Notes under the pieces: model-generated | The model's input: only the letters and a program-made list of their open reading frames with translations | Told to the model about the DNA's origin: nothing | The model's database searches: none | Assembly (NCBI GenBank): GCA_009777535.1 | Contig: WRLP01000028.1 | Location: forward strand, 1 to 32,702 | Length of the DNA stretch: 32,702 bases | Source of the DNA: Treponema sp. | GTDB lineage: Bacteria > Spirochaetota > Spirochaetia > Treponematales > Breznakiellaceae | Direction: 5' to 3' | Position numbers and translations under genes: made by a program | Part shown: one piece after another, positions 26,609 to 30,673 of the stretch | Layout of the letters: every line of letters begins with the position of its first letter | Position numbering within the stretch: the first letter of the stretch is position 1

Positions 26609-28846
26609 TTATCGGTGAAAAGGAGGGTTTTTGCTAGTCTGTAAAATTGAATCGATCAGCGCAGCGGCGCCGTCATAATCACCGACCAGCCTGTATTGAA
26701 GAATGTTTTTAACAGCGTCGCCTATGTCAGATGCATGAGTGAATTCCTGCAGGGCGTCCGCTGTTTTATTTATCACCGCTGAATCAAAATTATCCAGAGC
26801 TGTTTTAAGTTCGGACAGCAGTTTTTTCAGTAAATTCATATCTCTGGAACTGTCCTGAGCCGCGCTGTTTTCTTCTGACAGGATAGCGTCGATATGATCA
26901 AGAAGCTTTTTAAGCTCCTGCAGAAATTCAGAGGTATTGGCCTGAATAAAGGCCTGGTTTTCCTGTTTCCCCGCCATCTCAAGCGCCCTGGCCCTGTCAG
27001 ACAGTTCCTGCGCTCCGATAATGGCCAATGCGCTTTTAATCCCATGGACGTAAATTATATATAAAGACATGTTATTCGATTCTATGCAGTCTTGTATTTC
27101 CGTGATTTTTTTTATTCCGTCCCTGTAAAAAACGCCGAGCATTTTTAAATAGTTTTTTGAATCTCCGCCTGTCATGGCGATGCCTTTTTCGGTGTCCAGG
27201 CCCCTGTATTCCATGTTTTTGCCTACGCTGATTTTTTCCGCTTCGGCGCCGGATAAAATTTCTACGGAGGATTTTATTTGCTTTTCTTTTGGAATCCATT
27301 TCGACAAGATGGAGTCCAGCTTGACCGTATCAATGGGTTTGGATAAATAATCGTTAAAACCGTTATTCAAAAACATTTCTCTGGTGCCCGAAACCGCATT
27401 GGCCGATAACGCAACAATGGGTAGTTCTTCAAAATACCGGTCTTTGTCTTTAAGCGTTCTGATATATGCTACCGTTTCAACGCCGTCCATTTCCGGCATC
27501 ATATGATCCATAAATATCAGATCGTAACGAACGGCTTTTACCGCTTCGATCGCCTCCGGGCCGCTGTTGCAAAGGGTTATTTCCATTCCGTATGGCAGCA
27601 GCAGCCCCCTGGCTACCTGTAAATTTGTTGCGATGTCATCTACTATCAGTACTTTTGCTTCCTGTGCGGTAAAGTTGATAAAAAAGCCCTTCGCGGCTTT
27701 TGCGGCAACTTCGCCGGCGGCATTAATATCGCCGGATGGCGAAGGTGAAAATTCGTGTTCTTCCCGGACGATTTCCATGTCACCGGCATCGATTTTTGAA
27801 AAATTCCAAATATCGTTTATCATGGAAAGGAGGTCTGATCCCGCCTGCTTTATTGTAAGAATCTGCTCCCGTGCCGCCGGCGGAATATTTTCACGTAATG
27901 CGAGTTCGGCCATTCCGATAATGGCATTCATCGGGGTGCGGATTTCGTGGCTCATTTTGGCGAGAAAAATTGATTTGGAACGGGACGACTGCTCGGCCAG
28001 CTCGCGGGAGCGTTCGGCTTCGTGCTGTGCGTTAATGGTTTCGGTTAAATCAATAAGAAACACCATTGTGCCGCTGGATTCTCCCTGTGAATCCCGCACA
28101 GGCGTCATTTGTATTCCCAGAAATCCCCTGGATTCATGGCTGCCGGAAAAATATTCCTGTGTGGTATACAATATCTGTTTTTCGGCGGTTGAGATTATAT
28201 ACAAATCTTCGATTTCCCTCAGGGAGTCGTGGGAAAAATATGGTTCAAACAATTCATTGATATTTTTTCCCAGAATATTGCCGATTTCAACGGAATCGAA
28301 ATACAGGGAGAAAGAGCTGCTTGAAAATATCAGTTTCCCCCGGCTGTCAAACAATAAGATGGGATTCGGGCAGTATTCAAGTATCAATTGAACGTACATT
28401 TCCAGCATTGTTTTTTCATTCAGGGTGATTTTCCGCTGCTGATCCAGTTTTTCGATCATGTTGTTAAATGCCTGCGAAAAATCACCCATAAAATTAACGC
28501 GCTGATTGTAATCGCCCTTTGCAACCTGCTGGGACTGCCATGTAAGATGTTTGAGCGATGCGTGTAACGCTTTTAACGGAGAAGCAATTTCGTTATACCG
28601 CGGCGGCTGGGTGCAATTCAGGTTGCCTGTCGCCAGCTCTTTGGCAAAAGCCCTTGCCTGGGAAACGCTGGTGCAAAAATACTGAAGTCCTTTCCCAAAG
28701 TTCCGGAATGCTTCCGGCAGGCTTTCAGTATCCAGAAAAGCGTCCGATGGCTTGTAAATTATGTCGTGCAGATACGTGAAAAGCGCATCTGCAACCGGCT
28801 TTAACGAGTCGTGCTCTTCTTTCAATTTCAGCGCGGCTTTCTGCAT
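26609..28846 (-). CDS. hybrid sensor kinase-like protein lacking the HATPase domain
   Basis: A 745-residue soluble signalling protein with no membrane helix. A HAMP-like linker spans about 65-138 and a PAS domain about 150-270. A HisKA dimerisation helix pair follows, with MSHEIRTPMN and phospho-acceptor His300. Normally about 110-130 residues of ATP-binding domain (N, G1, G2 boxes) would come next. Here only about 30 low-complexity residues (about 365-396) join HisKA to the receiver domain (397-515, DD at 403-404, Asp447 in FMDHMM, Lys503). A histidine phosphotransfer domain near 565-660 has His601 in VHGIKSA. The join is in frame with no stop. It follows the V4R gene by 15 nt, which may supply the signal. 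Confidence 0.88.
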   Translation of the reverse strand: MQKAALKLKEEHDSLKPVADALFTYLHDIIYKPSDAFLDTESLPEAFRNFGKGLQYFCTSVSQARAFAKELATGNLNCTQPPRYNEIASPLKALHASLKHLTWQSQQVAKGDYNQRVNFMGDFSQAFNNMIEKLDQQRKITLNEKTMLEMYVQLILEYCPNPILLFDSRGKLIFSSSSFSLYFDSVEIGNILGKNINELFEPYFSHDSLREIEDLYIISTAEKQILYTTQEYFSGSHESRGFLGIQMTPVRDSQGESSGTMVFLIDLTETINAQHEAERSRELAEQSSRSKSIFLAKMSHEIRTPMNAIIGMAELALRENIPPAAREQILTIKQAGSDLLSMINDIWNFSKIDAGDMEIVREEHEFSPSPSGDINAAGEVAAKAAKGFFINFTAQEAKVLIVDDIATNLQVARGLLLPYGMEITLCNSGPEAIEAVKAVRYDLIFMDHMMPEMDGVETVAYIRTLKDKDRYFEELPIVALSANAVSGTREMFLNNGFNDYLSKPIDTVKLDSILSKWIPKEKQIKSSVEILSGAEAEKISVGKNMEYRGLDTEKGIAMTGGDSKNYLKMLGVFYRDGIKKITEIQDCIESNNMSLYIIYVHGIKSALAIIGAQELSDRARALEMAGKQENQAFIQANTSEFLQELKKLLDHIDAILSEENSAAQDSSRDMNLLKKLLSELKTALDNFDSAVINKTADALQEFTHASDIGDAVKNILQYRLVGDYDGAAALIDSILQTSKNPPFHR

Positions 28847-28861
28847 AAAACAGGTTTTTTA

Positions 28862-29395
28862 TCAGGCTGCCAAACACTTGAACCGGCAGACTCTGTCTCC
28901 GCTCGCCCAGCAGTCAACCTCGCGTACCGAGTACGGCTTGCCTGTATACGCTTCGAGAATGCCGGCGATAAACCCTTCGTCGTAAACGCATACATTTTCA
29001 CCGGTTATCGGCAGTCCGCTGCAATCGAGGTCTTCGGCTACTGTAAGAATAATTTCTTTTGCACCCTCGTTAACCGATTCAATGCGAAGTATTCCGACCT
29101 TCAGGTCTTCCAGGATTTTCTGCAGATTGGCGACAAAAATGTTTAAGTCTACCTTTAAGTCCATTGCGTTACGGGCAAATTCTACTCCGGCCAGATGACC
29201 TGCCTTGCGGTAGTATTCGTCCGCCTTTGTCCTGCCGAATTCCTTTGTAAGAATGTCCAGCATGGTAAACTGCATCAGCCTGTAAACCAGCACCGGCATT
29301 TCTTCGCCCAGACTTCCCCGGCCTTCCTTAATGTTGCCGATATTTGACCATGTAAAACTGCCGTGATCCTTGCCGCTCATGAATACATTTTCCAT
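28862..29395 (-). CDS. V4R (4-vinyl reductase) domain sensor protein
   Basis: A 177-residue soluble protein. The C-terminal V4R domain (about 113-176) is shown by AEDLDCSGLPITGENVC, YDEGFIAGILEAYTGKPY and EVDCWASGDRVCRFKC. V4R domains are thought to bind small hydrophobic molecules or metals. Cysteines 125, 136, 162, 170 and 174 could form a metal or redox site. The helical N-terminal part (residues 33-110) is of the kind found fused to signalling domains elsewhere. Here it is a separate gene directly before a hybrid kinase-like gene. The ATG has a clear GGAGG site. Confidence 0.9.
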   Translation of the reverse strand: MENVFMSGKDHGSFTWSNIGNIKEGRGSLGEEMPVLVYRLMQFTMLDILTKEFGRTKADEYYRKAGHLAGVEFARNAMDLKVDLNIFVANLQKILEDLKVGILRIESVNEGAKEIILTVAEDLDCSGLPITGENVCVYDEGFIAGILEAYTGKPYSVREVDCWASGDRVCRFKCLAA

Positions 29396-29491: not shown

Positions 29492-30616
29492 CTACCTAAA
29501 ATAGCGCTGAAAAGCGCTTTTGTCTTTCTCGGGACTGCCTGACTCTCCCTGCACTGTCACATTATAAAACTTGTCGGAAACGCCCAGAAATATGCCGATC
29601 AGGGAAGGATCGAAAAAAATTCCGTTGTCAGTTGAAATTATATTTACGGCCTGCTCATGCGAAATCGGTTTTTTATACGGTCTTTCGGAGACAAGGGCGT
29701 CATATACATCGGCGATTGCCATCAACCGTCCAAGAAGGGGTATTTCTTTTCCTTTCAGCCCCCTTGGATAGCCCGTTCCGTTCCATTTTTCGTGGTGTGT
29801 GGAAACCAGCGTTTTTGCCTGATCCAAAAAAATATGTTCTGTTGTATTTTCCTTGATTTTTTCTATTATCATTTCCCCGAACGTTACGTGCAATTTAATT
29901 TCTTCAAATTCTTCGCCGGTCAGCCTGCCCTGTTTTTTAAGAATATTGTCGCTGATTGCGATTTTCCCGACATCGTGAAGCTGCGCCGACTGCAGAATAA
30001 AATCCATGTCCCAGGTTGATGTTTCTTCGGCATACAGACCGTCGCTTTTCAGCGCATCAAGCAATATGCTTAAATAGTACTGAGTTCTTTCTATGTGCCC
30101 GCCGGTAATATCGTCGCGGCAGTCCACAAGCTCGGCCATTGTTTTAAGAACGGCGTTTTTTAATTCAACAACCGTTCTGGTTTTTTCTTCCACCATTCCC
30201 TGCAGATTATTGTTAAAGTTGATAAGTTCCCGTTTTTGGGCGTCGACAAGCAAGTGTATTTCGATGCGCTTTAACAACAGCGGCGGAGAAAACGGCTTTA
30301 TTATGTAGTCTACTGCGCCCAGAGATAACCCCTTCAGCTCGTTTTCCATATCGCTGTGCGATGTAAGAAAAATAACAGGTATATTTATGGTCTTGCCCGC
30401 ATTTTTCAGGAGCCTGATAACTTCGTAGCCGTTCATTTCCGGCATTTCTACATCCAAAAGAATCAGATCGGGAATGTGCTTTTCCAGCATTTTCATCAGG
30501 CGCCGGCCGGAATCGAAGGTAAAAACATTATAAAATTTGCTGAGCGTGTCGTTGCCCATCGTTAAATTCGTTATATCATCGTCAACGAGAAAAATTGTTT
30601 TCTGCCCGGTGGTCAA
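29492..30616 (-). CDS. response regulator with HD-GYP output (RpfG-like)
   Basis: A 374-residue protein. The receiver domain (about 6-125) has the acidic pocket VDDD, phospho-acceptor Asp55 in LILLDVEMP and Lys107 in IIKPF. A coiled-coil linker (about 128-160) leads to an HD-GYP domain (about 162-350), with HDVGK (214-218) and HHEKWNGTGYP (274-284). HD-GYP enzymes hydrolyse cyclic di-GMP, or in some cases other cyclic dinucleotides. All hallmark residues are present. I chose TTG 30616, preceded by AAAGGAGA at 8 nt; the ATG inside that spacer is followed at once by a stop. A phosphorelay from the neighbouring kinase-like protein is possible. Confidence 0.93.
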   Translation of the reverse strand: MTTGQKTIFLVDDDITNLTMGNDTLSKFYNVFTFDSGRRLMKMLEKHIPDLILLDVEMPEMNGYEVIRLLKNAGKTINIPVIFLTSHSDMENELKGLSLGAVDYIIKPFSPPLLLKRIEIHLLVDAQKRELINFNNNLQGMVEEKTRTVVELKNAVLKTMAELVDCRDDITGGHIERTQYYLSILLDALKSDGLYAEETSTWDMDFILQSAQLHDVGKIAISDNILKKQGRLTGEEFEEIKLHVTFGEMIIEKIKENTTEHIFLDQAKTLVSTHHEKWNGTGYPRGLKGKEIPLLGRLMAIADVYDALVSERPYKKPISHEQAVNIISTDNGIFFDPSLIGIFLGVSDKFYNVTVQGESGSPEKDKSAFQRYFR

Positions 30617-30644
30617 GAAATCATTCTCCTTTCCCCTATATGCA

Positions 30645-30673
30645 ATAGTATAACAATGGTAATTAAATGTCAA
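30645..30673 (-). promoter_or_regulatory. promoter of the HD-GYP gene
   Basis: On the minus strand TTGACA (30673-30668) is followed at 17 bp by TACTAT (30650-30645). Transcription would start near 30638, just ahead of the AAAGGAGA ribosome site. Confidence 0.55.

Follow-up and report, generated by a model that had tools for sequence, protein, structure and literature searches.

A Treponema hybrid kinase that has lost its ATP-binding domain in frame and kept its phospho-acceptor sites

Main

The window analysed here, a 32,702-nt stretch of DNA from Treponema sp., encodes a 745-aa hybrid protein with HisKA, receiver and HPt domains and no HATPase. Comparison with relatives shows it to derive from an ancestral PAS/HisKA/HATPase/receiver/HPt hybrid kinase that lost about 280 codons in frame in the window's lineage: there are positional orthologues of full length, and each half of the protein groups with them. 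We place middling confidence in the further proposal that the loss produced a functional cytosolic phosphotransfer module, which would depend on other kinases for its phosphate and trade it with the receiver of the neighbouring HD-GYP protein.

Domain architecture

The open reading frame (26609–28846, reverse strand, as are all window features below) runs through 745 codons with no internal stop, which bears out the frame, coordinates and strand originally given. From the open reading frame, Pfam and an AlphaFold2 model, the protein comprises a HAMP-like N terminus, PAS, DHp (HisKA), receiver, HPt and a helical C terminus. The N-terminal helical/HAMP-like input module (residues 13–150, 28397–28810) is common to V4R-linked HD-GYP and GGDEF proteins. 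Matches to HAMP and PAS are weak; the PAS domain (residues 153–266, 28049–28390) falls below the PF00989 cut-off here, is clear in the orthologues and appears in the model. The three phosphorelay domains are recognized directly: HisKA (PF00512, residues 291–355, 27782–27976, 1.2e-16), Response_reg (PF00072, residues 399–512, 27311–27652, 7e-22, above cut-off, with alignment and Foldseek in agreement) and Hpt (PF01627, residues 569–653, 26888–27142, 7e-6, above cut-off). His300 (27947–27949, within MSHEIRTP), Glu301, Thr304, Asp447 (27506–27508) and His601 (27044–27046) are all in place, so that the phospho-acceptors had been correctly described as intact. The 745-aa protein has no strongly hydrophobic 19-residue stretch (maximum 1.46) and is therefore probably cytosolic.

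Between DHp and receiver lies a link (residues 365–396, 27659–27754) that occupies, by orthologue comparison and in the model, the place of the HATPase and of a receiver-like stretch, and contains the deletion junction. Its Ala/Gly/Ser-rich composition is as the original prediction described. No HATPase_c or HATPase-like model matches the 745-aa protein in Pfam at E values up to 10, whereas the same library detects HATPase_c in full-length orthologues at 1e-25 to 1e-28. The AlphaFold2 model, built on a 37-row alignment (mean pLDDT 74.6, pTM 0.42, at which the domain arrangement is not reliable), places the DHp hairpin at residues 268–346 and the start of the receiver at 398; residues 361–391 are disordered, with 361–388 below pLDDT 50 and devoid of secondary structure. 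As modelled, the link of ~30 residues leaves no room for a HATPase fold of >100 residues, and the domain search and structure prediction across it found no diverged ATP-binding fold. Foldseek matches listed were mostly receivers and PAS-containing sensor kinases. Alignment of the link suggests remnants of HATPase motifs (GD, GEV..KG), which could be chance.

The protein thus has the phospho-acceptor His, receiver Asp and HPt His of a hybrid (tripartite) histidine kinase and lacks its HATPase_c. Its best NCBIfam matches, far below cut-offs, are BarA/TorS/ArcB-type hybrid kinases, which share the HisKA, receiver and HPt modules but are complete with HATPase. A histidine kinase without HATPase cannot load itself with phosphate from ATP; the claim that this protein does not phosphorylate itself from ATP follows from such established biochemistry.

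Origin of the deleted form

Orthologues were sought by anchoring on the upstream V4R gene, which 11 of 40 genus genomes carry, the window's included. Two of these same-genus genomes, G012 and G043, keep the gene order HD-GYP, V4R, hybrid kinase, and in both the kinase is full length at about 1000 aa, with HATPase_c matches of 1.5e-25 and 5e-26, respectively, and an extra receiver-like stretch. The ancestral form that had been sought at the same locus in relatives is thus present, and the domain had rightly been called lost; the receiver-like stretch, missing as well, had escaped the earlier reading. Both halves of the 745-aa protein match the same orthologous gene, with 54–56% identity before the gap and 46–48% after it, and the C-terminal half is sister to the G012 and G043 genes with moderate support (89/93, 71-row tree).

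Two other origins were considered. A gene fusion was suggested by slightly better BLAST matches of the C-terminal half elsewhere (G043:C56, Fibrobacterota) and was rejected on the tree, whose support is moderate. Relocation of the HATPase to a separate gene was rejected when a search of the genome with the G012 segment met only HATPases within other kinases: the best match is 38% identical and lies within another kinase, and there is no stand-alone copy. Among the matches listed for a HisKA-link-receiver query of the 40 genus genomes, there was no other contiguous HisKA-receiver match.

The deleted form of the locus is seen in one genome only, a draft in 47 contigs, and the contig might have skipped an intact HATPase segment. 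We regard such an assembly artefact as very improbable: nowhere else does the genome carry a close copy of the missing segment, its paralogues differ too much to have produced a chimera (no more than 36% over long stretches), and a single orthologue matches both halves.

Constraint after the loss

Alternatively, the deletion could be a recent loss of function in a gene on its way out, in which the V4R/HAMP-like scaffold alone, or nothing, still matters. This would fit a form found in one species only, whose divergence is greatest in PAS and helix 2. Against it, all 745 codons are open and every phospho-site is kept. Nor is there any general relaxation or overall speed-up, because the branch shares of DHp (0.48), receiver (0.34) and HPt (0.44) do not exceed those of the V4R and HD-GYP neighbours (0.56 each).

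Changes at family-conserved columns are distributed unevenly, with 0 of 20 in the phospho-His helix, 1 of 49 in the receiver, 2 of 27 in the HPt and 6 of 18 in helix 2 and its exit (I342M, L347W, D348N, E353D, Y364H and S368P). The helix 2 excess (p=4e-4) is significant in this row alone out of 37; with the two junction-proximal columns left out, it still gives p=0.008. At its conserved columns the receiver has changed less (1) than in the full-length orthologues (8 and 11), a further point against decay. We infer that the segment once leading into the HATPase was released and the phospho-acceptor surfaces stayed under selection. The helix 2 excess also fits a lineage that truly lived without HATPase, and so speaks against a misassembly.

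A second, independent HATPase-less protein comes from an Oscillospiraceae genome (locus L138, WRMH01000018.1). This 438-aa HisKA-receiver-HPt protein (L138:7858–9165) lies two genes along from a full-length hybrid kinase of 1091 aa (L138:3778–7032), with a 276-aa receiver protein between them; the two paralogues share 57% identity across receiver-HPt and 52% across DHp. The 438-aa protein keeps an intact phospho-His helix and has lost conserved helix 2 residues, with L347F and D348N at positions altered in the 745-aa protein (L347W, D348N). These common changes may be chance, since D348N also occurs in one of that genome's full-length kinases (L209). We found no further HATPase-less contiguous HisKA-receiver matches in 150 + 398 genomes around the Oscillospiraceae genome, 393 genomes from the phylum to which the window belongs and the best rows from plasmids, in surveys that scored 7 to 20 candidates per genome when broad and can miss cases.

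The second case counts against simple decay, which we consider improbable, although less so than a misassembly. Together, the constraint pattern and the second case argue for a function that is real and has been kept, and against assembly error. Only tentatively would we extend this to a recurrent route, in which loss of HATPase from DHp-receiver-HPt hybrids gives rise to a separate class of trans-fed phosphorelay proteins whose signature would be a frozen phospho-His helix, a released HATPase-proximal half of helix 2 (L347 to W/F, D348 to N) and a kept receiver and HPt.

Genomic context and proposed function

Immediately upstream of the 745-aa gene is a V4R-domain protein (28862–29395), assigned by Pfam, NCBIfam and gene order and presumed to be a small-molecule or redox sensor. 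Cysteines occupy its positions 125, 136, 162, 170 and 174, and NCBIfam gives a single match, to the regulator MsvR and below cut-off; redox or metal sensing is possible. The next gene (29492–30673) encodes a receiver-HD-GYP response regulator (HDVGK and HHEKWNGTGYP motifs), presumed to be a c-di-GMP phosphodiesterase and, from Pfam, motifs and gene order, the likely output. Its best NCBIfam match is a NosR-family c-di-GMP phosphodiesterase, at 139 bits against a cut-off of 400.

The HD-GYP neighbour is supported as the output of the 745-aa protein because the input module repeatedly controls c-di-GMP enzymes. Genome G041 has the N-terminal module fused to an HD-GYP that shares 64% identity with that of the window, and G022 and G048 carry GGDEF fusions of this module. 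Other genera of the family encode, next after V4R, a GGDEF protein with the HAMP-like segment in common. V4R and the HAMP-like helical module look like a portable input cassette in the family (window 28862–29395; L186, L189, L190 and L273–L278), coupled to GGDEF in several genera, to HD-GYP by fusion in G041, or to a hybrid kinase. In a further genus, a V4R/kinase pair (G1113, L271) is uninformative on the HATPase, as its contig ends before that position. The proposed transfer from HPt to HD-GYP is strengthened by the conserved gene order and by the relative in which the V4R-linked N-terminal module is fused to HD-GYP; phosphotransfer itself is what these gene orders and domain fusions would imply.

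Most likely, the 745-aa protein would act on the neighbouring HD-GYP regulator as a trans-fed relay or phosphatase module, setting cyclic-di-GMP. Its phosphate would come in trans from another kinase, which would charge His300 within a mixed dimer or reach Asp447 or His601 through cross-talk, and its HPt would exchange phosphate with the HD-GYP receiver. Flow would be biased in one direction or the other by V4R and by the HAMP-like/PAS input, so that phosphate may sometimes be drawn off the HD-GYP protein by the module. Candidate donors are the many other sensor kinases of the genome, which has 31 HATPase_c matches above cut-off; no other kinase genes were found on the 32.7-kb contig.

The main rival reading, less probable yet able to coexist with the favoured trans-charged module, is that the protein serves mainly as a phosphatase or phosphate sink, its DHp (HEIRT, Thr304) and receiver-HPt dephosphorylating the HD-GYP regulator with no further need for kinase input. 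The HE/DxxT/N phosphatase motif, as defined previously (PMC3591291, PMC3510030), is intact as H300-E301-I-R-T304, and HisKA phosphatase activity requires its Thr/Asn (PMC3510030). However, nearly all HisKA kinases carry the motif, so that finding it here does not separate the readings, and the HD-GYP protein would still need a phosphate donor.

Discussion

With HisKA and the phosphatase motif present and HATPase absent, the 745-aa protein is a HATPase-less HisKA protein, or candidate split kinase, and belongs to this documented class rather than to a separate kind. SMART counts cited in earlier work give 1556 such proteins among 42417 (3.66%), of which 711 retain the motif (PMC3591291), a number that favours the phosphatase reading; P2CS lists them as probable or 'possible incomplete histidine kinase' (PMC2716373), and archaeal 'HisKA, no HATPase' proteins have been proposed as phosphatases (PMC5847659), again in that reading's favour. 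Like these (PMC3591291, PMC5847659, PMC2716373), the 745-aa protein has HisKA with the phospho-His; unlike them, it adds a receiver and HPt, and it derives from a hybrid kinase by internal deletion, with full-length orthologues surviving in the same genus.

Precedents for loading or unloading by a partner are found in split kinases, CheA3/CheA4 among them, and in the uptake by RetS of phosphate from GacS (PMC3591291, PMC5992135). In CheA3/CheA4 of Rhodobacter sphaeroides the phospho-acceptor and ATP-binding parts are on separate proteins, as proposed here, but the acceptor domain is of CheA type and the partner known, whereas the 745-aa protein has a HisKA-type DHp and, at most, a putative partner. 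In the RetS/GacS multikinase network a hybrid sensor protein acts on another kinase's phosphate through uptake and phosphatase activity (PMC5992135), resembling the proposed role; those two sensor kinases are known to interact, whereas the 745-aa protein is wholly without HATPase and its partner is again putative.

HATPase-less HisKA proteins number >1000 in one database count (PMC3591291), and their role in the literature is mostly proposed and little tested. At this locus the likely HD-GYP output can be identified along with both the deleted form and its full-length counterpart in relatives, and the second, independent case adjoins an intact paralogue; what a kinase does without its kinase domain therefore becomes directly testable in a c-di-GMP circuit.
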